A stretch of 23,470 nt of DNA from a virus, in the IMG/VR virus record IMGVR_UViG_3300034375_006907, positions 1 to 23,470 of that record; one strand, written 5' to 3'. Below the pieces are notes generated by a model, which was not told the DNA's origin, made no database searches, and saw only the letters and a list, made by a program, of their open reading frames with translations. Positions 686-21,795 of the stretch are shown in pieces. How positions within the stretch are numbered: the stretch's first letter is position 1; every line of letters begins with the position of its first letter. Position numbers and translations under genes: made by a program.

Positions 686-694
686 ATTATACCA
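686..694 (-). promoter_or_regulatory. Extended -10 promoter for the SSB gene
   Basis: The minus strand reads CTGGTATAATGG: a perfect TATAAT (691-686) with the TG dinucleotide of an extended -10. It overlaps the TAA stop of the sigma gene and lies 30 bp from the SSB start. No good -35 is visible at 17 bp. The same CTGGTATAnTG pattern recurs at 2288 and 5807. Confidence 0.6.
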
Positions 695-1463
695 GCTTCC
701 GCATTTTAGCAATGGCGCCATCAACGAGGCGACGGGCATGGGTCTGGCTGACCTTGACTCGGGTAGCAGCCGTAGACAGACGGCCCCCCTTAGCGTACTC
801 CATCACCAGGTCCTGCACCTTGGGCTCGACCTGTGCCTGTGCCAGCAGGTCACGGAGTTTAAGGATTGCCTTGTCTTGGCTGGCGGCAGATCCCTCAGTA
901 GAGGGCTGCTCAAGGATGTCAGCTAAAGTAATGGCGTCATCGTCAGAACCCATGGGCTTGTCGAGAGACAGGGGCTCAGCGGTGGCGTAACGGGCCAGGT
1001 CAACAAGTCGAGTGTTCTTAGGGGTGCGCTTGGTATTGCTCAGGCAGCCGTGGGTCTTAAGGTGGTTGACCTCATGCACCAGGTTCTCGGGCACGTAGAT
1101 CGGTTGCTCCTTCTGGATCATGTAGCGACCGAGCTTCTGCTTAATCCAGGGCACAGCGATGGTAGAGATCCGGGTGTTACGAGAAGCGTCGTAGCGGCTA
1201 ATAGCATGGCGCAGGCCCAGAACACCTTCCTGCAGCAGGTCTGCACTTAGTTCAGTGCCCCAGCGAAGGCGACGGCGATCAGAATAAGACTTGACGGTGG
1301 TATACACCAGCTTGAGATTGCCCTGGCAGATCTTGTTGATCAGGACGTTGCGACGCTTCTCGTCGGTAGTGCGACCCAGTTCAGCGAGCAGTTCAGTGGT
1401 GCGAACCTTGTCGATGGCGTGGTTGCCAGCGGTATTGAGCCAGGAAGTAACGGAGTCGGCCAT
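687..1463 (-). CDS. Phage RNA polymerase sigma factor (sigma-70 family)
   Basis: The 258-aa product carries a recognisable sigma-70 core. Region 2.1 is around GNLKLVYTTVKSY (48-60). Regions 2.2-2.4 are DLLQEGVLGLRHAISRYD (75-92) followed by the TRISTIAVPWIKQKLGRYM segment (97-115), equivalent to the FSTYAxWWIRQ element that melts and reads the -10 box. A region-3 like stretch IYVPENLVHEVNHL follows (122-135). The phrase PLSLDKPMGSDDDAITLADI (164-183) resembles the region 3.2 linker. A region-4 helix-turn-helix lies at the end (LSTAATRVKVSQTHARRLVDGAIAKMRKL, 229-257). It should direct host RNA polymerase to phage promoters, most plausibly the late motif described here. A strong sigma-70 promoter lies upstream, so the host enzyme can make it. 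It differs from T4 gp55 in having a region 4. Confidence 0.9.
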   Translation of the reverse strand: MADSVTSWLNTAGNHAIDKVRTTELLAELGRTTDEKRRNVLINKICQGNLKLVYTTVKSYSDRRRLRWGTELSADLLQEGVLGLRHAISRYDASRNTRISTIAVPWIKQKLGRYMIQKEQPIYVPENLVHEVNHLKTHGCLSNTKRTPKNTRLVDLARYATAEPLSLDKPMGSDDDAITLADILEQPSTEGSAASQDKAILKLRDLLAQAQVEPKVQDLVMEYAKGGRLSTAATRVKVSQTHARRLVDGAIAKMRKLV

Positions 1464-3580: not shown

Positions 3581-5322
3581 TGTCATTCCCCCACTACATT
3601 CAAGAAGCTGTACGCCTTGGCCTCCTGGTCGAGGAGGGTGGTCAGATCGTTGACTGCAAAAAGGATGAGGTCGAGACAGTGCTGGGAACGGCTCGCATCG
3701 TCGAGAAGCTGCAGCCAACCACAACTGCTGAGGTTGAGAACACCACGGACCAAGAAGCTATAGTTCTGTGTCGCATCCTCAACTCACCACACGGTACTGC
3801 CCGTGAGTTGTGGTCTCAGCTTCGTGTCGGCTTTGGCGTGGCTCACGACCAGGCTATCCCCCTCAACCTATGGTCGACCTCTGAGTTCAAGGCTGTCGGC
3901 AACGAAATCGACCGCACTTACCTGAACCAGCGGGACAATCAGGTTATCAGTCGAGAAGGTCTGATCGGCAGCTACGTTGCGCTGCAGCCAGCCTCTCAGC
4001 TCGTTGATCCTATTTCCTTCAACCAGGTCGTAGGCAATCTCGGCCACGAGGAGGCGATGGCCGCCTATGGTGACGCTGGCTCGGAGTGGGAGGTTGCACT
4101 AGACCTGCTCCGTAAAGCTCGTGTCAAGGCCCTCTACCAGGAAATGCTCCAAGAGGTTGCACAGGTTCAGCGTGCAGACACCAAACTGGAGAAGCAGATC
4201 GAGTTCCAGCAGGGTCGTCTGATGGAGTGTCTCGGCCTACTGCAGGGGTCCCTGGGCAATCAAGGTAACGCGGTCGATGCTGTTGAGGACCTTCTAGCTC
4301 CCCAGAACGGCGGCGTGTCGATTATCGACCAGATCATGAATGCTCGCACCAAGGCCGCGCCCGTCAGCACTGGAATCCAGGCGATGGATCTGGATATGGA
4401 GGGTGGCGTCCGTCCGGCAGGCCAGGAAACTGGAGGCAGGTTGTTCACACTAGCTGCCCGCACCGGTATCGGTAAAACCGTCTTGGGTGTACATGCGTTT
4501 GTCAACCTGGCCATGGGCGGCCTGACTGTTGGCTTCATCTCCGCAGAACTTGACCGCGCCGCTATCTACGCTCGGATCTGGGCTAATGCCACCAAGGTCG
4601 CTTATCTCAGCAAGAAAAACGCCCCCATGGCCGATGCTGGGGATCTGATGCGTAACTGCGTGACCGTGGGTAGCATCGAGTCCCCCGACAAGGATCGAGA
4701 GAAGCACGCAATGTTGATCTCAGAAGCGGCCATGCTGGTGCAAGCAGCCGGTGGCAAGATGCTGATCGAGGATCCCTGGGGCGCCAACGTGGATGAGGTG
4801 ATCAACTCCCTTCGCTCCATGAAGGCAAAGAACCCGGAGCTTCGCGCTGCCGTAGTGGATCACTTCCACGTATTGGGTCGACACAAGGGTGCTCCCGCCT
4901 CTGAAGCTGCAATGCTTGAAGAGCGTGCTTACAAGCTAATGACATGCGCCAAGGAGTTAGGCATTGACCTGATTGTTCTGGCTCAGATGAATCGCGTTGG
5001 CATGGACATGCTTGGCAAGAAGCAGCCGCCTGGCCTAGACCAGATTCGTGGCACCGACGCTCTGTCCCACGTCAGCCACGCTGTCTGGATCGTCCGTAAG
5101 GAGATGGAGGCGGTTGACGGGAAAGACGAATGGACCAAACGACTGGAGTTTCATCATGCCAAGACTCGTGGGCGCCAAGCTTACTGGGATACCTCCAAGG
5201 AAGCTATGACTGGAATCAACGGAAACCTTGGGTGCTCTATCCTGGAGATGGATTACTCCTTCAGCTCGGTACGATCAGACAATACCTTGAGCCAGATCCA
5301 GCAAACCGGAGGATCCTTATGA
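3580..5322 (+). CDS. dnaB: DnaB-type replicative DNA helicase
   Basis: The 580-aa product has a DnaB/RecA-fold helicase core. Walker A is ARTGIGKT (293-300), followed by FISAELDRAAIYARIWA (319-335), the DnaB 'SlEMs...l..R' element. Walker B is LRAAVVDHFHVLG (421-433), then LIVLAQMNR (464-472), QIRGTDALSHVSHAVWIVRK (488-507) and a C-terminal KTRGR (528-532) at the arginine-finger position. It should unwind the phage replication fork as a hexamer. The N-terminal part (1-290) is about 60 residues longer than in typical bacterial DnaB; residues 50-140 may be the usual helical N-terminal domain. The ATG at 3580 overlaps the upstream stop codon, showing translational coupling. No primase gene is in the window. 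Confidence 0.88.
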   Translation: MSFPHYIQEAVRLGLLVEEGGQIVDCKKDEVETVLGTARIVEKLQPTTTAEVENTTDQEAIVLCRILNSPHGTARELWSQLRVGFGVAHDQAIPLNLWSTSEFKAVGNEIDRTYLNQRDNQVISREGLIGSYVALQPASQLVDPISFNQVVGNLGHEEAMAAYGDAGSEWEVALDLLRKARVKALYQEMLQEVAQVQRADTKLEKQIEFQQGRLMECLGLLQGSLGNQGNAVDAVEDLLAPQNGGVSIIDQIMNARTKAAPVSTGIQAMDLDMEGGVRPAGQETGGRLFTLAARTGIGKTVLGVHAFVNLAMGGLTVGFISAELDRAAIYARIWANATKVAYLSKKNAPMADAGDLMRNCVTVGSIESPDKDREKHAMLISEAAMLVQAAGGKMLIEDPWGANVDEVINSLRSMKAKNPELRAAVVDHFHVLGRHKGAPASEAAMLEERAYKLMTCAKELGIDLIVLAQMNRVGMDMLGKKQPPGLDQIRGTDALSHVSHAVWIVRKEMEAVDGKDEWTKRLEFHHAKTRGRQAYWDTSKEAMTGINGNLGCSILEMDYSFSSVRSDNTLSQIQQTGGSL

Positions 5323-11284: not shown

Positions 11285-13765
11285 TTACCAGGTTTCCAGA
11301 GTGAACCTCTTCCAGCTATTGTCCGCGATGCAGATGTAGAAATAGTTGGCGTCGTACCTGACCTCACCCGCAGTACCGACGGCTGTCGATGATGCAGGAG
11401 CGGTCACTGGGCTGATCTTGTGAGCCTCGGACCTGGCGTAAACCCCGATCACCATGGTTTTATTGTTGGTGAACGTCCCCGTACCGCCCACATGCTCGAT
11501 TGGGACTGCGATGTAGTTACCCTGGTCAACCGCTTGACCCGTGGTCCGATAGGCGTGAGCTTCGGAGGCGTCATCTTTTCGCTGAATATACAAGCCCTGA
11601 GCCAAGCCTAGACCCATGCTGAACACAGCAGAAAGGTCGACATTGTTAGTTGTGGTCTTATGAACTCGGATCTCGGTAGCGAGGGTGGGGTCAGCGTTAT
11701 CTAGAGCGATGTGACCATTGGAAGGATCGCCCGTCAGAGTGTTCTTGTACTTGTAGGCCGCTGAAGTGATCCCGTCTGCGCCATGCTGAGCCTGCTTGAA
11801 GATCTGAGCAACCGCATCCCAGACGATGGTGGCGCCTTCTTCAAAGTTGGTACCGTCGAAGTCACCTAGGTTTCTGACCGTGTTCGGCGTTGGCAGCCAG
11901 TTGCCGGAGGCTTGATCGTAGACGAGGAGATCGTTATCAGCAGGGCTGGTCGTAGTCAGGTCTACGTCGGACAGATCATCCAGCTCGACCACGCCGACAA
12001 TGCCGATACCGTCGCAACCAGTTTCTTGCGCTGTGCCTGAGTCAAAGTCACCACCGTCAGAGACGGTGTAGTCGCAGGTGCTCGCAGGTGTTTCGGCAGT
12101 CCAGATACCCGAACGATAGACAAGCAAATCGGCGTCTGCTGCTCCGACGGTGTTCGTGTCGCTAAGTTCTGCCAGCGTGGTAGCTCCACCACCGCCACCA
12201 CCTCCTGAGACGACCATGAAGCTGAGGTCGCACAGCTTGTCCTTAGTGATATCCGCAACAGCAGTTCCCTGGCTAACGAAGGACACTGCGATGCGGCAGC
12301 CCTTTGTGTCAGCGTCCACGGGCACCGCCTCGACCAGCAGGATCACCCAAGCATCGGTGCGATCCTTGCGCTGAATGTAGACATACTGGTCTGGCTTGAC
12401 CAGGTTGAGCAGAATGTTCTTGACATTCGCCCCGTCGTCAGTCTTGTAGCCAACGTAGAGTTCAGTTGTCAAAGACCAGTCGGTCTTGTTCTGGTGGCTG
12501 TTGACGCGGAACTTGCCATCGTCATAGCCTTCGGTTTCAGGGTCATTGAACTTCCAGAAGCCAGAAGCAACGCCGCCGCTAGCTCCCTCGTTGACCTTGA
12601 TCTCCTCCCAGGCGCCGTCAATGTATAGATAGAGTTGGTCGGTAGATGGTAAATACCAGCTATCGCCTTGAATCAGTGCATCACCGTTGTCTCGAAGAGT
12701 AGGAGTCGTCTCTGAGACGATCGTAACATTGTCAACACTGCCAGGATCTGGCGCCGACCTGGTGAACAGGAACTCGTAGAGCTTGGCATTCTGGTAATCG
12801 GGCTCTAGGCCAGCCGTCTCTACATGGGTAACATTGATCTCGAAGCCGCCAACGGTCTCCGTGTAGCTCGTGATGCTGTACAGGTGCGCCTGAGATAGGT
12901 CCTCGCCAAGAGCAACATAGATACGGTCGTAGCCCTGAGTCAGCAGGTCGCGCAGCAGGACCTCGACATCATTGCCTCTGCTGGTTTCGTTGCTGACATG
13001 AAAAACGGTAACAAGCTCACCGTCAGCAGAATCGGTATGGAAGTGGCCGCTATTGGGTTCTTCGGTGTGATCATGGGGATGGTAGGTCCAGCCAATGGTT
13101 GAACCCACGCCAGTACTGCCGCCACCAGTAGCGCTAACAGCAGACCCGCCAGCGGACATGGTCTGACGGAGAAACAGGTTTGTCCACTTGGCGCCATCCC
13201 AGGTGAGAACCTGACCCTTTTCCACGGGCAGGATTGACTGGTCGACGTCTTTTAGGTCGAACAATTCGGCATCAGTGGCCACCAGGTCCTTGCCATCGCG
13301 ACCATCAACGCCGTCACGACCGTCTTGGCCGTCTTTCCCAGCCCTGCCGCTGGTCACGAGCAGCATTCTGTCCTGTACGTCCTCTACAAGGCTCTGGAAG
13401 CGCTCTTCGTACTGTGTCAGGTCTACTTGTGCCGTTTTAGCTTCAGAGGCCTCTGGGGCCGCCTGAGTGCTCTCTGAGCGAAACTCAGTCGTAGAAACCG
13501 TCGTCATCAGGCCGCGAGTCACCTGCACGCGAGGAAGCAGGCGCTGTAACTCGGCGATAATCAGATCGTCTTCTTCGTCGGACTCGATCCAGATCTGCCA
13601 GGTCGCCTCGAACTCCTGCAGAGTCGGGAAGCGGTTAACGTAGATATAGATCCCTTCACGGCCGGACAGAGCAGGCTTGCCGTCGACAATACTAAGCTTT
13701 GCAGATAGGCGGATGATCTCGTTGCCGCCGAGAATCCCTAGAATGTCGGCACTGCTGAGAATCAT
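11285..13765 (-). CDS. Tail fibre-like protein with a collagen-like stretch
   Basis: The 826-aa product starts with a globular domain (1-95; EFEATWQIWIESDEEDDLII). A probable coiled coil follows (about 112-138), then seven collagen-like Gly-X-Y triplets (140-160, rich in Lys/Arg-Asp). Repeats with the phrase 'L.Dvd...p..dqvL.wd...W' come next (LFDLKDVDQSILPVEKGQVL, about 168-187; LSDVDLTTTSPADNDLLVYD near 590). Three copies of a beta-rich domain of about 110 aa are visible, near residues 225-340, 395-520 and 685-790; the last two share YIQRKD. A Gly-run links domains near 525. The C terminus, GEVRYDANYFYICIADNSWKR, is a style seen in cyanophage fibres. It is probably a trimeric fibre or adhesin of the virion. 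A late motif lies 20 nt before the ATG. Confidence 0.8.
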   Translation of the reverse strand: MILSSADILGILGGNEIIRLSAKLSIVDGKPALSGREGIYIYVNRFPTLQEFEATWQIWIESDEEDDLIIAELQRLLPRVQVTRGLMTTVSTTEFRSESTQAAPEASEAKTAQVDLTQYEERFQSLVEDVQDRMLLVTSGRAGKDGQDGRDGVDGRDGKDLVATDAELFDLKDVDQSILPVEKGQVLTWDGAKWTNLFLRQTMSAGGSAVSATGGGSTGVGSTIGWTYHPHDHTEEPNSGHFHTDSADGELVTVFHVSNETSRGNDVEVLLRDLLTQGYDRIYVALGEDLSQAHLYSITSYTETVGGFEINVTHVETAGLEPDYQNAKLYEFLFTRSAPDPGSVDNVTIVSETTPTLRDNGDALIQGDSWYLPSTDQLYLYIDGAWEEIKVNEGASGGVASGFWKFNDPETEGYDDGKFRVNSHQNKTDWSLTTELYVGYKTDDGANVKNILLNLVKPDQYVYIQRKDRTDAWVILLVEAVPVDADTKGCRIAVSFVSQGTAVADITKDKLCDLSFMVVSGGGGGGGATTLAELSDTNTVGAADADLLVYRSGIWTAETPASTCDYTVSDGGDFDSGTAQETGCDGIGIVGVVELDDLSDVDLTTTSPADNDLLVYDQASGNWLPTPNTVRNLGDFDGTNFEEGATIVWDAVAQIFKQAQHGADGITSAAYKYKNTLTGDPSNGHIALDNADPTLATEIRVHKTTTNNVDLSAVFSMGLGLAQGLYIQRKDDASEAHAYRTTGQAVDQGNYIAVPIEHVGGTGTFTNNKTMVIGVYARSEAHKISPVTAPASSTAVGTAGEVRYDANYFYICIADNSWKRFTLETW

Positions 13766-13783
13766 ACCACTAATGACGCTAGG

Positions 13784-13793
13784 CTAGTTTGCC
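13784..13793 (-). promoter_or_regulatory. Late motif before the 826-aa fibre gene
   Basis: GGCAAACTAG on the minus strand in the context CTATCGGCAAACTAGCC; A of CTA is 20 nt from the ATG at 13765. It stands back to back with the plus-strand motif at 13808, separated by 14 bp of AT-rich DNA. Confidence 0.6.
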
Positions 13794-13807
13794 GATAGGT
13801 AATATAT

Positions 13808-13817
13808 GGCAGTCTAG
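13808..13817 (+). promoter_or_regulatory. Late motif before the 46-aa membrane protein gene
   Basis: GGCAGTCTAG on the plus strand in the context ATATGGCAGTCTAGAC; A of CTA is 13 nt from the ATG at 13829. It forms a divergent pair with the motif at 13793-13784. Confidence 0.6.
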
Positions 13818-13828
13818 ACTATTCCATC

Positions 13829-13969
13829 ATGGAAACAACTGTTATCATCGGCCTTGTGCTGTTCATCGCTTCCGAGATCATGCCTTACCTGCCGATCAAG
13901 TCGAATGGCCTGATTCAGGCTATCCTCGAGGCGCTGATGACCGTCTTCCCGAAGCCTGAAAAGAAGTGA
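13829..13969 (+). CDS. 46-aa small membrane protein
   Basis: A short frame encodes METTVIIGLVLFIASEIMPY followed by about 26 residues ending FPKPEKK. Residues 4-20 form a single hydrophobic helix; the tail is basic. Similar tiny one-helix proteins are, from memory, common in cyanophages, with no known function; a role in lysis or virion membrane contact is possible. The start is supported by the late motif 13 nt upstream and the end by a terminator about 20 nt downstream. It opens a four-gene plus-strand island within the late minus-strand region. Confidence 0.7.
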   Translation: METTVIIGLVLFIASEIMPYLPIKSNGLIQAILEALMTVFPKPEKK

Positions 13970-13981
13970 TCACCTAGCCAA

Positions 13982-13991
13982 GGAAGACTAA
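13982..13991 (+). promoter_or_regulatory. Late motif fused to a terminator before the 100-aa gene
   Basis: GGAAGACTAA on the plus strand; its last two bases are the first two of the terminator stem that follows. A of CTA is 24 nt from the ATG at 14014. Confidence 0.6.
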
Positions 13992-14013
13992 GGGGCTTTC
14001 GGGCCCCTTTTTT
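13990..14013 (+). terminator. Intrinsic terminator abutting the next ATG
   Basis: Stem AAGGGGC/GCCCCTT (13990-13996 with 14003-14009), loop TTTCGG, U-tract of six T (14008-14013). The next base is the A of the ATG at 14014. It ends the 46-aa gene transcript. Confidence 0.85.
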
Positions 14014-14316
14014 ATGTCTACTTGCTTCACCTTTCAGGGATTTGTCGTCGAGATCATCCGCATCCTCTGGGACCACGGCGTGTATCAGGACAACAAGTGG
14101 CTGAACATGGTACATGACAACTGGTTCAACTTCTGGGTGGACTACAAGACCTGTCTGACGATGCAGGACGTTGACCGCCAGATCGAAGAGCTTTTGGAAC
14201 CCTCTGGAGTCGACGAGCCGATCTTCACGGAAACCCTTGAAGGCGAGACACCGCTCGGCGGCGAGATGAGACTCTCAGCGCCCTGGAATGAAACTGACGA
14301 CGAAGCAAGCATGTGA
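14014..14316 (+). CDS. Hypothetical protein (100 aa)
   Basis: The 100-aa product begins MSTCFTFQGFVVEIIRILWD. It has an aromatic-rich helical first half (GVYQDNKWLNMVHDNWFNFW) and an acidic second half ending NETDDEASM. No family is recognised, though similar proteins occur, from memory, in cyanophages. The ATG immediately follows a terminator U-tract (TTTTTTATG) and there is no Shine-Dalgarno. It overlaps the next gene by 29 bp in another frame, suggesting coupled translation. Confidence 0.7.
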   Translation: MSTCFTFQGFVVEIIRILWDHGVYQDNKWLNMVHDNWFNFWVDYKTCLTMQDVDRQIEELLEPSGVDEPIFTETLEGETPLGGEMRLSAPWNETDDEASM

Positions 14317-14745: not shown

Positions 14746-15048
14746 TCACCACTTCTCCCGATTGGCCCAGTAGGCTGCAGACATCTTACCTTTAGCAATG
14801 TTCTTAGCGTGACGAGCCTTGAAGCTGTCGCGCTTTTTCTTCATGGCAGAAGATTCGCCCTTCTTGGGCTTGCCAGCGGTCTTGGCTCCCTGTTCGCCAA
14901 AGCGGATCAGCTTAGTCTTGCCACCTTCCTTGGCCAGCACAACGTGGCTCTTGGTGGGGTGGCCAGGCGTGCGCTTTGGCTTGTTGTAGCCAGACAGACC
15001 GTTCTTGGTCAGGCGTGGATCTTTCTTGGACGGTTTCTTGGGGGCCAT
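14746..15048 (-). CDS. DUF6321-like small basic protein
   Basis: The 100-aa product is lysine-rich: MAPKKPSKKDPRLTKNGLSG, then YNKPKRTPGHPTKSHVVLAK, RFGEQGAKTAGKPKKGESSA and a C terminus FKARHAKNIAKGKMSAAYW. This matches my memory of the DUF6321 family, widespread in cyanophages and other phages and without known function. The charge suggests binding to DNA or RNA in the virion or cell. Its ATG overlaps the stop of the upstream 54-aa gene (TAATG), so the two are translationally coupled within a run of small basic genes. Confidence 0.8.
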   Translation of the reverse strand: MAPKKPSKKDPRLTKNGLSGYNKPKRTPGHPTKSHVVLAKEGGKTKLIRFGEQGAKTAGKPKKGESSAMKKKRDSFKARHAKNIAKGKMSAAYWANREKW

Positions 15049-16248: not shown

Positions 16249-16430
16249 AGGTCTGAACCGTCTTTGTTCTTCTGCCCAGGCTCGTAGCCTTTGCCGTCAA
16301 GCCCGGTGACAGGCTCGTCAATGTCCCGCTCGACCTGCTTGCTGGGGAAGCCAGCGTTAGCATCGGCGTCAATGTTGACCCCGTCGATATAACGGGGTCC
16401 AGAGCTGTACTCCACATAGAAGTCGGACAT
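16245..16430 (-). CDS. 61-aa hypothetical protein
   Basis: I choose the ATG at 16430 (MSDFYVEYSSGPRYIDGVNI), because it overlaps the stop codon of the upstream gene as TGATG; an in-frame ATG at 16457 would lie inside that gene. The product is acidic and Gly/Asp-rich (VNIDADANAGFPSKQVERDI, then TGLDGKGYEPGQKNKDGSDL) and probably poorly structured. No family is recognised. It sits in a tightly overlapping group with the genes on either side. Confidence 0.65.
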   Translation of the reverse strand: MSDFYVEYSSGPRYIDGVNIDADANAGFPSKQVERDIDEPVTGLDGKGYEPGQKNKDGSDL

Positions 16431-16783
16431 CAGACTTGCTCCTGGATCTCCTTGCAAGCTGCGAGGATTTCAGCTTTAGGCAAAGCATTCTTGAGGTCGT
16501 GACCACGCTCCATGGCGTAGTCAAGCAGCTCAGCCTTGGTCATGTCCTCGAGGTTCTCCTCTTCGACTTCCAGCTTGGTTTCCATCTCGAAGGCATCGGC
16601 GCCAGCCTCGACAACCACTTCGGGCACGGGCTTGGCTTCATGGGCCTTGATCTTCTGGGGCTTCTCTGCACCTTCCTGTACATAGCCACGAGCAATCAGC
16701 TCACGAGCCTGGATGGTGTAATACGCAGCCTTACGCTTGTCGCCCTTGACGAAGTACGTCGGCATTTTCTCAAGGTGTGCCAT
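16430..16783 (-). CDS. Hypothetical protein with C-terminal HeH/SAP-like motif
   Basis: The 117-aa product begins MAHLEKMPTYFVKGDKRKAA with YYTIQARELIARGYVQEGAE, a short helical N-terminal unit. After a Pro/Glu-rich linker (about 40-75) the C terminus (LEDMTKAELLDYAMERGHDL, then ALPKAEILAACKEI, about 77-113) has the helix-extended-loop-helix pattern of HeH/SAP domains, which often bind DNA or occur in phage structural proteins. The ATG follows directly on a terminator U-tract, and a late motif fused with that terminator is 26 nt upstream. Likely a virion-associated accessory protein. Confidence 0.7.
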   Translation of the reverse strand: MAHLEKMPTYFVKGDKRKAAYYTIQARELIARGYVQEGAEKPQKIKAHEAKPVPEVVVEAGADAFEMETKLEVEEENLEDMTKAELLDYAMERGHDLKNALPKAEILAACKEIQEQV

Positions 16784-16784
16784 G

Positions 16785-16809
16785 AAAAAAGGGGTCGTGT
16801 TGACCCCTT
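16785..16809 (-). terminator. Intrinsic terminator abutting the next ATG, fused with late motif
   Basis: Stem AAGGGGTC/GACCCCTT (16809-16802 with 16796-16789), 5-nt loop, six T residues (16790-16785), then C and the ATG at 16783. It ends transcripts of the 972-aa gene. Confidence 0.85.
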
Positions 16810-16817
16810 AGACTACC
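16808..16817 (-). promoter_or_regulatory. Late motif before the HeH-domain protein gene
   Basis: GGTAGTCTAA on the minus strand in the context TAATCGGTAGTCTAAGG. Its last two bases are the first bases of the terminator stem. A of CTA is 26 nt from the ATG. Confidence 0.6.
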
Positions 16818-16833
16818 GATTAGTGGGTATGTA

Positions 16834-19752
16834 TCAGCGAGGGAACTTTTTGAGGTGATCCTCCAGTTCTCCTTGCATGTGCTGGGTCAGCTCCAGCTCG
16901 CCGGAAACGGCGACAGGCGCAACACCTGGTCCGGTAAAGGTCAGGTCCAGCGGGTGGCTGCCAGAGATGAACTGGTTCACCAGGTTGCTGGGGTTGGCAA
17001 CGCCAGCGGCTGCCAGGTCATACTGCAGGGTGGTTGCAGTTGCCACAGGAGCGGTGAAGGTGTAGGAACCGTCCTGGTTACCACCGCCTGCCACTGTAAA
17101 GCCAGTGGTGGTGTAAGCAAAGGCGCTGGTGTGGTGAGTGCCGTCGAAGTACAGCGTCATAGTGGTGTCGCTGATGCTAAAGCGCTCAATACCGAGAACG
17201 GTAGAGAAGGCGCTAGAGGGATCGATGGCGGCGGACTCGGAGCCAGCATAGGTGCCGTCGTAAACAAGGGTCTGAGCGGTGCTGGTGGGAGCCGCGGCCA
17301 GAAGCTCGTTGACCTCCTCGAGTGTTACCTCGACAGAGCCAGCGCGTGAAGCGACCAGAGCGTCGGCGAACAGGCCCATCTTCTGCTGAATCTGCTCAAC
17401 GGTAAGGTCAAGGCTGTGGAAGTAACCACGAGCATCTTCCTCGGCGTGAGCTAGCTGAAGAGCGTCCATCGCAATCACGGGACGCATTGCAGCAACACGC
17501 TCGCCCAGGGTTGCGCCGGTGAAGTCCTGGAAGGCGCGGACGTAGCGAGCAGCAGAAGCCTCGGCATCGGTCAGCTCGATGTTGTACCCGACACCAGAAG
17601 CCTGAGTATCAGAGTACAGCCAGTAGCCGCCACCCGAGGACAGGATGGTTGCCTCAACACGGCTAGGAGCCGCGTCGCTCATGTAGTAGTGAGCGCCAGA
17701 GGCAGTAGGTGCGGTACCGCCCTGAATGTTAGAGCCAGATCCGGTAGGCTGATCCAGGATACGACCGGTTTGACCGTACTGGTGGAAGTACAGATCAACG
17801 CCCGAGGCGGGAACGACCTCGGTACGAACGTGGTAGTGTCCGTCGATGAAGATCTCGATGCGATAGTCGTCTGCAACACGGAAGGTGATAGGCAGCTCGC
17901 CCGCATTGCCGGTGTAGCCGATACCAGTAGAGTTGCGGCGATCAGCCAGATTGTATCCGTAGGTGGTGCCACCGAAGTAGGGCTCCATGTAGGACATCTG
18001 GAACTCGATCAGAGCGTAGTCAGCGGGATCGCTAACCATCCAGGAGACGCCGCTGCTGGGCTGACCTGCAACCTTCCAGGAAAGGGCAGAGTTGTCAGTG
18101 CCAGGAACCAGACCAAAGAAACCGTAACGGTAGAAGGCGCTGGTGTTGTTGGAGCACTGGAAAGTGACTTCGTCACCAGGAGTCTTCAGGGTAGCGAATT
18201 TAACCTGGCGGGACAGGATGTCGCTAGTGCCACCAGTGGACTGCAGCTTGCCGTCAGGAGTGTTGATCCAGTTGCCTTCGGGATAAGCGTTCTCGAAGCC
18301 GTAGCCAGATCCATCAATGGAGCTGTAAACGTACTGGTAGGGATAGTCGTTAACGGCAGCGGTAGGAGCCACGGCCTCGGTCCCGGTCTTGACCCAGGTA
18401 CCACCTTCGACGTCCCAGACGTACATCTTGTCTTCGACGGTCTCGATCAGCCACTCATCGAGGTGACCGGTCGCGGGGAAGTTGGCGCTGCCAGCAAAAG
18501 CACCACGGTAGTAGGTAGTGTAGGCAGGAGGCTGGGCGGGGTTGGCCACATACTGGATGGTGCGAACCTTGCCACCGAAGGCAATGCCAGACTCGCGAAG
18601 CACGAACTCCTCTTGACCCTCGGGTAGACCCGAAGAAGAAGAGATGGCCATCAGCCACAACGCCTCGTTGGCGCCCTGAGGACCAGCAGAAGAGAAGGAC
18701 TCAATGCTGAGAGTCGTGGTCGCAGCGGTCGGATACTTGCCCTGCAGAGTTGCCAGGCGAGCAGCGTTGAAGTTGGAGGTGACCAGGATGTGGAGGCCAG
18801 AGCTCAGCTTGTTGCCGAAGCTTCCACCAGGACCATAGGTCAGGCGAGAGCGATACCAGGATGCGTCGCTGCCGTCGTTCTGACGAGCGGTGTACAGAGC
18901 CAGGTACGGCCAGGAGGTAGTGTTGCGGGCATCGACCACCATGTAGAAGCCGCCCTCTTCGTCGACGGTTGCCGACTGGAAAGCGCCCAGGGTGTCGGTG
19001 TCTTCGCCGCCACTGTAGAAGTACCAGTTGATCTTACGACCAGGCTCGTTCCTGTAGTACCAGCCAGAGGTCCCACTGGGATCGGCGGTAGCGTGCTCGC
19101 CGTCGGCGAAGACGTTGGCGTCCGAGGTGGTCAGGATCTGACGGCCAGTGAAGGTAGAACCCACAGCGGCTGCGATCTTGCTGTCGACACTGGAGATGGT
19201 GTCGTAGGGACTCAGGTCAAGTGCGGTCCACTCGCCGTCGCGGCGAATGTAGTCAGCGCCAGAGGGAGCATCAACGATTGACTCGGGTTGACCGATGTAT
19301 CGAGGGCCGCCAGCCTTGAGGGTGAAGTGAATCCAGTTATCGAGGTCGTCGTACTGGCCGTTGTCAGCTTCGCCAGTCAGCAGGAGGAGGGTTGCCTTGT
19401 CCGTTCCAGAGGCAAGATTGTCTACTTCGGTATAACCGGCTGCTGCTAGTTTTTCGAGACCAACGTTCGTGTCAAAGCCCGCAACAGTGCCATGACCGAC
19501 GACATAGAGATGGATTTTGCTGTAAACGCGCTGGCGCCCGTCGGCCAGGTTGTCCACATACTGCTCAACTTCGTCGCCAAAGATAAGGTCGTAGCCGTCG
19601 GTTGCGCGGGGCTTGGTCGCGTTGTTCTTGAGGGTCGCGACCTCATAGATATGTTCAACAAGAGGCAGGTCCGTTACTCGGTTGCGAGACCTAAAGAAGT
19701 CTGCAACGTCGGCGGGCTGGCCTTGCTGAATGCCGTAAATACGGTCAGCCAT
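16834..19752 (-). CDS. Large virion structural protein (972 aa)
   Basis: The 972-aa product begins MADRIYGIQQGQPADVADFF. It has many beta-strand and Gly/Ser/Thr-rich stretches typical of fibres, decoration or adhesin proteins, and phrases such as YIRRDGEWTALDLSPYDTIS (near 170-190) used as fibre linkers. Residues about 730-860 are more helical (QLAHAEEDARGYFHSLDLTV). The C-terminal 120 residues form a probable beta domain (TLVYDGTYAGSESAAIDPSS onward), ending in a helical tail. I recognise no specific family. Codons are strongly G/C-ended as in the capsid gene, suggesting high expression. It sits in the head-gene cluster after the two decoration-like proteins, with a late motif and a Shine-Dalgarno AAGGA upstream, so it may be a head fibre or a main tail protein. 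Confidence 0.7.
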   Translation of the reverse strand: MADRIYGIQQGQPADVADFFRSRNRVTDLPLVEHIYEVATLKNNATKPRATDGYDLIFGDEVEQYVDNLADGRQRVYSKIHLYVVGHGTVAGFDTNVGLEKLAAAGYTEVDNLASGTDKATLLLLTGEADNGQYDDLDNWIHFTLKAGGPRYIGQPESIVDAPSGADYIRRDGEWTALDLSPYDTISSVDSKIAAAVGSTFTGRQILTTSDANVFADGEHATADPSGTSGWYYRNEPGRKINWYFYSGGEDTDTLGAFQSATVDEEGGFYMVVDARNTTSWPYLALYTARQNDGSDASWYRSRLTYGPGGSFGNKLSSGLHILVTSNFNAARLATLQGKYPTAATTTLSIESFSSAGPQGANEALWLMAISSSSGLPEGQEEFVLRESGIAFGGKVRTIQYVANPAQPPAYTTYYRGAFAGSANFPATGHLDEWLIETVEDKMYVWDVEGGTWVKTGTEAVAPTAAVNDYPYQYVYSSIDGSGYGFENAYPEGNWINTPDGKLQSTGGTSDILSRQVKFATLKTPGDEVTFQCSNNTSAFYRYGFFGLVPGTDNSALSWKVAGQPSSGVSWMVSDPADYALIEFQMSYMEPYFGGTTYGYNLADRRNSTGIGYTGNAGELPITFRVADDYRIEIFIDGHYHVRTEVVPASGVDLYFHQYGQTGRILDQPTGSGSNIQGGTAPTASGAHYYMSDAAPSRVEATILSSGGGYWLYSDTQASGVGYNIELTDAEASAARYVRAFQDFTGATLGERVAAMRPVIAMDALQLAHAEEDARGYFHSLDLTVEQIQQKMGLFADALVASRAGSVEVTLEEVNELLAAAPTSTAQTLVYDGTYAGSESAAIDPSSAFSTVLGIERFSISDTTMTLYFDGTHHTSAFAYTTTGFTVAGGGNQDGSYTFTAPVATATTLQYDLAAAGVANPSNLVNQFISGSHPLDLTFTGPGVAPVAVSGELELTQHMQGELEDHLKKFPR

Positions 19753-19777: not shown

Positions 19778-19787
19778 TTAGTCTTCC
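19778..19787 (-). promoter_or_regulatory. Late motif before the 972-aa virion gene
   Basis: GGAAGACTAA on the minus strand, 27 nt (A of CTA to A of ATG) from 19752. It begins 7 bp after the T-tract of the preceding terminator. Confidence 0.6.
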
Positions 19788-19793
19788 GCCATT

Positions 19794-19813
19794 AAAAAGC
19801 CCCTTGCGGGGCT
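19794..19813 (-). terminator. Intrinsic terminator after the 110-aa decoration gene
   Basis: Stem AGCCCC/GGGGCT (19813-19808 with 19803-19798), loop GCAA, five T residues (19798-19794). It is followed within a few bases by a late motif. Confidence 0.85.
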
Positions 19814-20245: not shown

Positions 20246-20632
20246 TCAGCGGGCAACGCCGTCACACAGCTCGATGAACATGCCATCGAAGGTAACGTCG
20301 CCAGGGGTGCCTGTTGTGCCAGTAGAAGCAGTCACGGTGTACTGGATAACATTGGTGGCACGGCCATAGCCGCGATGATGTGCGATGTAGACGCCGTTGG
20401 GATCCACCTGAGCGGGATCAACAGCAAAAACGTCACCACCAATCTGGTAGGTCAGAGTAGCAGCGGTGTAGTCGCCAGTAGGAGCGGTTTCCGTCAGGCC
20501 AACAACGATCACTCGCAGGGTGCGGATCGTGTTCAGGGAAACAGGCGCCTGTTCGGCGGAAGCCGTAACTTCAAAAGCGTTGTCAAGGTTAAAACCTTCA
20601 CGGGGGAAGATCCCCTCAGAACGAGCAGCCAT
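20246..20632 (-). CDS. Decoration-like virion protein, paralogue A (128 aa)
   Basis: The 128-aa product begins MAARSEGIFPREGFNLDNAF. It contains VDPNGVYIAHHRGYGRATNV and ends FIELCDGVAR, matching the 110-aa neighbour at both ends and in the middle. It is about 18 residues longer owing to insertions near residues 48-66 and 100-113. It is rich in beta-forming and Thr residues and has no transmembrane segment. It lies between the capsid gene terminator and its paralogue, so an abundant head-surface protein is likely. A late motif is 25 nt upstream. It could instead be a major tail protein, but the close duplication makes decoration more plausible. Confidence 0.7.
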   Translation of the reverse strand: MAARSEGIFPREGFNLDNAFEVTASAEQAPVSLNTIRTLRVIVVGLTETAPTGDYTAATLTYQIGGDVFAVDPAQVDPNGVYIAHHRGYGRATNVIQYTVTASTGTTGTPGDVTFDGMFIELCDGVAR

Positions 20633-20655: not shown

Positions 20656-20665
20656 ATAGACTTCC
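20656..20665 (-). promoter_or_regulatory. Late motif before the 128-aa decoration gene
   Basis: GGAAGTCTAT on the minus strand (last base T instead of A/G), 25 nt from the ATG at 20632. It begins 7 bp after the T-tract of the capsid gene terminator. Confidence 0.55.
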
Positions 20666-20672
20666 GAGCATT

Positions 20673-20698
20673 AAAAAAGGGCCCCTCGAAAGGAGCCC
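20673..20698 (-). terminator. Intrinsic terminator after the major capsid gene
   Basis: A stem of four plus three base pairs with one mismatch (20698-20695 and 20693-20691 with 20679-20682 and 20684-20686), loop TTCG, followed by six T residues (20678-20673) on the minus strand. Confidence 0.8.
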
Positions 20699-20719
20699 CT
20701 GAAGGATCAACCTGATAGA

Positions 20720-21622: not shown

Positions 21623-21772
21623 TGTTAAAAATCCTTAAAAGATGAAGGTGAAAAGGTTTGGGTGATTGAGCCGCCGAGCATCGCGCTCCTTGCCTCAGGA
21701 CACCCTGTCCAGTTCGCCTCATCACGAAACGACCCTTAAGGGTATCATCTATTGTAAGGTTACCTATTCATG
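21623..21772 (-). promoter_or_regulatory. Long leader of the major capsid gene
   Basis: This gap holds no gene. On the minus strand it has, in order: a degenerate late-like motif (GGTAACCTTA, 21764-21755), the 10-bp palindrome CCCTTAAGGG (21742-21733), a small hairpin GGACA/TGTCC (21710-21698) and the capsid gene ribosome-binding site. It is the longest untranslated leader in the window. It could hold the promoter or an mRNA-stabilising structure for the most abundant protein. Confidence 0.45.
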
Positions 21773-21795
21773 AAAAAAGGGGCCTCAAGGGCCCC
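21773..21795 (-). terminator. Intrinsic terminator after the scaffold gene
   Basis: Stem GGGGCC/GGCCCC (21795-21790 with 21784-21779), loop of 5 nt, six T residues (21778-21773) on the minus strand. Confidence 0.85.

Follow-up and report, generated by a model that had tools for sequence, protein, structure and literature searches.

Results

Overlapping promoters and terminators in a cyanophage fragment. The window analyzed here, i.e., the whole stretch of 23,470 bases, represents part of the genome of a tailed cyanophage, a Synechococcus siphovirus of the S-CBS2/S-CRES type, with S-CRES3 (88% over 6 kb), S-CRES1, S-CRES2, and S-CBS2 as its relatives. Its gene content comprises replication genes, structural genes, and the gene for a phage sigma factor (687 to 1463, minus strand; phrog_351, Sigma70_r2), which is preceded by a sigma70-type promoter at 1516 to 1487. 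No known RNA families were detected in the window with Rfam covariance models, and no tRNA was found there. A cluster of ATCGGAT-type direct repeats, a candidate origin or operator array, is located at 2580 to 2680, between divergent early genes and upstream of the replication gene at 2699. Late promoters are placed back-to-back at 13760 to 13830, between divergent genes that lie at 13765 (minus strand) and approximately 13830 (plus strand).

Shortly downstream, on the plus strand, a late -10-like motif, GGAAGACTA (13982 to 13990; PWM score of 10.2 bits), has its T at 13989, and the 5' arm of a terminator hairpin, AAGGGGCT-TTCG-GGCCCCTT (13990 to 14009; folding energy of -13.0 kcal/mol), begins at the very next base, here denoted T+1. 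The T6 tract of this cassette (14008 to 14013) abuts the ATG of a phrog_3316-family gene of 100 aa (14014 to 14316, plus strand). The same arrangement is found on the minus strand, where the motif GGTAGTCTA (16809 to 16817, T at 16810; 14.4 bits) is joined at T+1 by the hairpin AAGGGGTC-AACAC-GACCCCTT (16789 to 16809; -13.3 kcal/mol), followed by a T6 tract (16785 to 16790), a single C, and the ATG at 16783 of a 117-aa gene, MAHLEKMPTYF.. (16430 to 16783, minus strand; phrog_3281, labelled endonuclease VII), hereafter MAHL... With a GC-rich stem of 8 bp, a folding energy of -13 kcal/mol, and a T6 tract, the cassette has what is expected of an intrinsic terminator. A sequence-only reading of this DNA had described a late motif running into a strong terminator stem on both strands, at 13982 to 14016 (plus) and 16817 to 16781 (minus), with the U-tract touching the ATG or one base away from it; this is exactly what we observed, the gap being 0 nt on the plus strand and 1 nt on the minus strand.

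A third overlapping cassette, at 303 to 263 on the minus strand, consists of the -10 sequence TGATACACT (295 to 303), the hairpin GGAGGGGC-CCACCAA-GCCCCTCT (272 to 294) with its stem at T+1, a T tract, and the ATG at 265 to 263. It had been taken for a degenerate copy of the other two. The copy is indeed present and in the same register, but its -10 is of an early type, with a late-motif score of just 3.0 bits. A contrasting layout, in which the terminator comes first, occurs twice on the minus strand of the window: before the gene at 19752, with the terminator at 19813 to 19798 and a late-type motif at 19787 to 19779, and before the gene at 20632, with the terminator at 20700 to 20677 and a late motif at 20665 to 20657.

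A late promoter motif without a -35 box. The late motif escaped a generic sigma-70 scan, which returned fewer sites than in shuffled sequences, and we therefore used expectation-maximisation motif discovery, without prior input, on the regions preceding genes in the window and three reference phages. This resulted in ATnGGnAnACTAG, a -10-like motif lacking a -35 box, which precedes approximately 42% of the genes with an intergenic gap in the reference phages. The designation late is supported by its distribution in S-CRES3, where 18 of 21 good sites fall within the structural half (33 to 71 kb). Across 179 weighted gene clusters, the -35 region carries no more than 0.05 bit from -28 to -52. 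With its A at -11, T at -7, and GG at -14/-13, the motif is similar to an extended -10 element, and it is probably read by a phage sigma factor: phage sigma genes are present, and the product of the gene at 687 to 1463 is a candidate reader.

Outside the motif model, the same 179 clusters display a C at T+5 and purines at T+6 (82%) and T+7 (80%). We interpret this C-purine-purine as an initiator-like signal that would place the transcription start at T+6/T+7. Together with the register of phiX174 (see below), it predicts starts at 13995 to 13996, the last G of the GGGG arm, for the plus-strand cassette and at 16803 to 16804 for the minus-strand cassette. The distance from the motif T to the ATG is mostly 21 to 24 nt (approximately 100 loci), corresponding to a leader of about 15 nt with a narrow length range. 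Since late leaders are generally devoid of a Shine-Dalgarno (SD) sequence (SD-like 4-mers in approximately 15% of families), starting without one does not distinguish the cassettes; the lack of an SD sequence, earlier presented as a cassette feature, is thus real but a general trait of late leaders. Ribosome loading through protein S1, as suggested for the U-rich leader of the cassettes, is a hypothetical mechanism.

The hairpin begins at a fixed position relative to the motif. The sequence-only reading had pointed to related genomes as a place to look for the motif-terminator-ATG arrangement, and there it recurs in one register. In approximately 100 relatives, 21 terminators have the first base of their hairpin exactly at T+1, and almost none have it at neighbouring offsets. 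When binned by 5 nt, the motif T falls in the bin around the T+1 offset for 26 unique terminators, compared to about 1 per bin elsewhere upstream. An independent motif model, which ends at T+1 and was built solely from promoters distant from any terminator, placed 11 DNA-context families at the T+1 offset, compared to an average of 0.09 for each position upstream. The cassette layout is beyond chance. The other preferred layout is that with the terminator first, where the stem ends 13 to 22 nt before the motif T.

A pattern scan of 2.9 million viral contigs with one form of the late cassette gave six matches, all before one gene family of this phage group, while a control pattern with a scrambled -10 gave none in the same contigs. 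A second form, with an AGGGGG arm, gave five matches, three of which (L135, L137, and L138) were in another phage type and were rejected as chance, the terminator there preceding a TATAAT promoter.

The layout switches repeatedly at an orthologous boundary. Most cassette copies belong to one gene family, that of MAHL... Among 44 non-identical orthologs of this boundary, 21 have the overlapping layout, 13 have the terminator followed by the promoter, and 10 have the promoter only, so that the promoter is present in all 44. On the protein (gene) tree, at least 13 changes of layout are needed, indicating repeated switching, and two MAHL.. loci with identical proteins differ in that one has an intact stem and the other a broken 5' arm. 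Upstream of a MAHL-type gene in L016 and L044, the late motif is accompanied by a hairpin, AGGAGG..CCTCCT, which nearly touches a GTG start and has no T tract.

That the same layout stands on opposite strands before unrelated genes, as had been claimed, holds more widely, in that cassettes recur before several gene families. Cassettes were also found before two distantly related phrog_3316 genes, that of the window and a 54% identical relative in which the cassette is retained (L011, L033, and L040), and before a 91-aa gene of L013; cassettes with early-type -10s precede HNH gp47 of S-CBS2, gp112 of S-CRES3, and the gene following ssb in the window and in S-CBS2. A candidate at 31887 of S-CBS2 was dropped, as its ATG opens no gene and its motif is weak. 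A protein search of the viral collection with phrog_3316 gave one locus only. In S-CRES1, S-CRES2, and S-CRES3, the phrog_3316 gene is preceded by a hairpin, T tract, and ATG without a recognisable promoter motif, which shows that the promoter and terminator halves are separable. Orthologs of this kind, with a terminator abutting the ATG, lie at approximately 14815 to 14830 (minus strand) in L003 (S-CRES3) and at reverse-complement position 8726 in L005 and L007.

Contact between T tract and ATG is mostly a general terminator property. The proximity of the U-tract to the ATG had been proposed as a cassette trait. An ATG follows the T tract within 5 nt in 142 of 292 terminators, compared to 7 to 12% in controls, and the contact is therefore mostly a property of terminators in general; in the cassettes, this ATG is used as a start codon. 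In the terminator-first class, most of the ATGs after the tract open ORFs of fewer than 25 codons, whereas in the overlapping class 21 of 22 start an ORF that is 45 aa or longer. The notion that the contact between U-run and ATG is specific to start codons was accordingly rejected, many of these ATGs being no start codon. Even in places where no gene starts, [AC]ATG or ATTG comes after T tracts far more often than expected by chance, e.g., on the minus strand of the window at 20677 to 20700, 19798 to 19813, and 21760 to 21790, and an ATG-type sequence in this position is possibly a pause or release signal. No such ATG enrichment after T tracts was seen in T4 or Kayvirus 515A1.

Pairing is maintained in the promoter-proximal part of the stem. 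The cassette arms were compared in a fixed register, as MAFFT alignment misplaced the loops. At T+1 to T+6, pairing was found in 148 of 150 cells, compared to 135 (maximum of 143 in 10,000) when arms were dealt among the sequences, relatedness being uncorrected in this comparison. Compensatory changes were observed at T+3 (G-C to A-T) and at T+6 (G-C to C-G or T-A). The arms themselves vary (GGGGTC, GGGTGGC, GGAGGGA, and GGGGCA), as do the loops (3 to 7), and a T tract follows every stem. If transcription starts at T+6/T+7, the pairs from T+1 to T+5 can form only in read-through RNA, and the maintenance of pairing in this promoter-proximal part of the arm argues for selection on the termination of upstream transcripts.

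RNA beginning at T+1 folds with approximately -12 to -14 kcal/mol, while RNA beginning at T+6 mostly has -1 to -2 kcal/mol and RNA from T+7 mostly 0. A start at T+6/T+7 thus leaves about one base of the GGGG arm and reduces the stability from approximately -13 to approximately -1 kcal/mol. With a start at T+3 or earlier, on the other hand, the hairpin would survive (mostly -10 to -14 kcal/mol for RNA from T+1 to T+3). Not every contact between promoter and hairpin frees the RNA: at L011:6122, L012:5335, and L047:18624 (plus strand), the late motif is followed by a strong hairpin with a T tract that starts at T+3 to T+5, about 46 nt before the gene, and would largely remain. With most of the structure predicted to lie inside the new RNA, these hairpins are candidate attenuators.

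Comparison with other phages. The overlap of a promoter with a terminator is not unprecedented, as the H-A element of phiX174, i.e., the gene A promoter pA together with the terminator after gene H, has the same layout; a simulation study (PMC9135205) terms it an overlapping promoter-terminator element and notes that it appears to decouple the adjacent genes. Its annotated start at 3962 lies inside the hairpin at 3956 to 3974. When TTTCAT, 17 bp from TTGACA, is taken as the -10, which is our own assignment, the stem is at T+1, the annotated start at T+7, and the ATG of gene A at T+26. The two systems thus share the register of -10 and stem and a T6 tract touching the ATG; a start in the 5' arm is annotated in phiX174 and predicted for the cassettes. 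However, the phiX174 element is a single copy in a small ssDNA phage and has a sigma70 promoter with a TTGACA -35 box, whereas the cyanophage cassette recurs before several genes in tailed dsDNA phages, uses a -35-less motif, and has a stem that is preserved in evolution.

In T4, the late promoters of I-TevI, segB, soc, and e lie inside inhibitory hairpins, so that the structure is present only in read-through RNA (PMC2988022). Starting late RNA within a hairpin would likewise free the downstream gene here, but the T4 hairpins hide the SD sequence, while the cassettes have none, either within the stem or from there to the ATG, and carry a terminator T tract instead. Late promoters of T4 and Kayvirus have a long -10, no -35 box, and an initiator approximately 6 nt downstream (PMC7698491), and the cyanophage motif is similar in all these respects. 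No overlap of TATAAATA with a terminator was found in T4; in both T4 and Kayvirus 515A1, terminators precede promoters, and no overlapping arrangement was found. Bidirectional intrinsic terminators also place a hairpin at a gene boundary, but the cassette has a proper T tract on one strand only, with two A in its 5' flank and a weak tail, AGTCTTCCTT, on the opposite strand.

Discussion

We propose that the cassette is a compact boundary element in which a -35-less, phage-specific -10 abuts an intrinsic terminator, and that the new RNA lacks the 5' arm, leaving the downstream gene insulated; judging from the sequences, we give this reading a probability of roughly 0.8. A polymerase arriving from the upstream gene would transcribe both arms and the U-tract and stop. 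A polymerase recruited by the -10 motif would start on the final G of the GGGG arm (T+6/T+7), and its RNA, lacking the 5' arm, could not form the terminator and would reach the AUG approximately 19 to 22 nt later. As upstream RNA would stop and new RNA escape, the downstream gene would be insulated from upstream transcription and depend on its own promoter only. Initiation inside the hairpin, which had been suggested before, is supported by four independent lines of evidence: the T+1 register, the C-purine-purine at T+5 to T+7, the compensatory arm pairs, and phiX174. The accompanying idea that the upstream transcript ends where the downstream one starts appears well supported as a mechanism, though with a precedent in phiX174. 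What can be read from the DNA itself is the layout with its fixed register, the fact that it recurs before unrelated genes, the covariation in the stem, and the exchange with the terminator-then-promoter layout. From these we infer where transcription starts, that a phage sigma recognises the motif, that termination takes place in vivo, and that insulation is the function under selection.

Other explanations were considered. The promoter could be self-attenuated, with a start at T+1 to T+3 that places the whole hairpin in the leader, so that most RNA would end ahead of the ATG if no antitermination factor of the phage intervenes. The energies of RNA from T+1 to T+3 would fit this, as would the L011, L012, and L047 hairpins, which lie mostly after the predicted start, and the presence in S-CRES1 to S-CRES3 of an ORF with the annotation SPT5-like elongation factor. 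Promoters of the sigma-70 family, however, start approximately 6 to 8 nt from the -10 T, which together with the initiator-like purines at T+6/T+7 and the phiX174 start at T+7 in the same layout makes self-attenuation quite unlikely. We regard it as very improbable that the hairpin is only the terminator of the upstream gene, with an inactive or coincidental motif and a downstream gene fed by read-through: junctions of terminator and ATG without a promoter do exist, but the motif is in register-specific excess and scores strongly, and a promoter is kept in 44 of 44 orthologous boundaries whatever the layout. Operators are classically found as inverted repeats over start sites, and a dimeric regulator could bind AAGGGGTC..GACCCCTT in just this place. 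An operator would nevertheless be a most improbable explanation for inverted repeats whose arm sequences and loops vary while the pairing is kept and a T tract is always present.

A translational switch of the T4 type, in which the read-through hairpin next to the AUG blocks ribosomes, only RNA initiated inside the hairpin is translated, and termination is secondary, has a parallel in the late T4 RNAs of I-TevI, segB, and others, which lack the inhibitory hairpin (PMC2988022), and the cassette hairpin ends about 5 to 8 nt before the AUG. As no SD sequence is sequestered and every stem is followed by a terminator-like T tract, we consider it unlikely as the main function, although such a switch may act in addition to termination. 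A further, doubtful idea is that the cassette is a stop-and-restart module: the terminated polymerase would stay on the DNA, slide back a few bp, and restart with the phage sigma at the overlapping promoter, so that one polymerase would be handed from gene to gene with a break in the RNA between them. Sliding and reinitiation after termination have been described for E. coli RNAP in vitro (PMC6978380).

As far as we found in the open-access literature, no late promoter motif had been defined for S-CBS2-like cyanosiphoviruses before the one described here. The boundary element proposed here would separate and drive adjacent genes within approximately 35 bp, in the same base-pair register as in the unrelated phiX174, and the cassette may serve as a minimal insulator for synthetic operons. 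Its natural variants, i.e., overlap, terminator first, and broken arm, offer material for studying the evolution of promoters and terminators where the boundary itself stays fixed.
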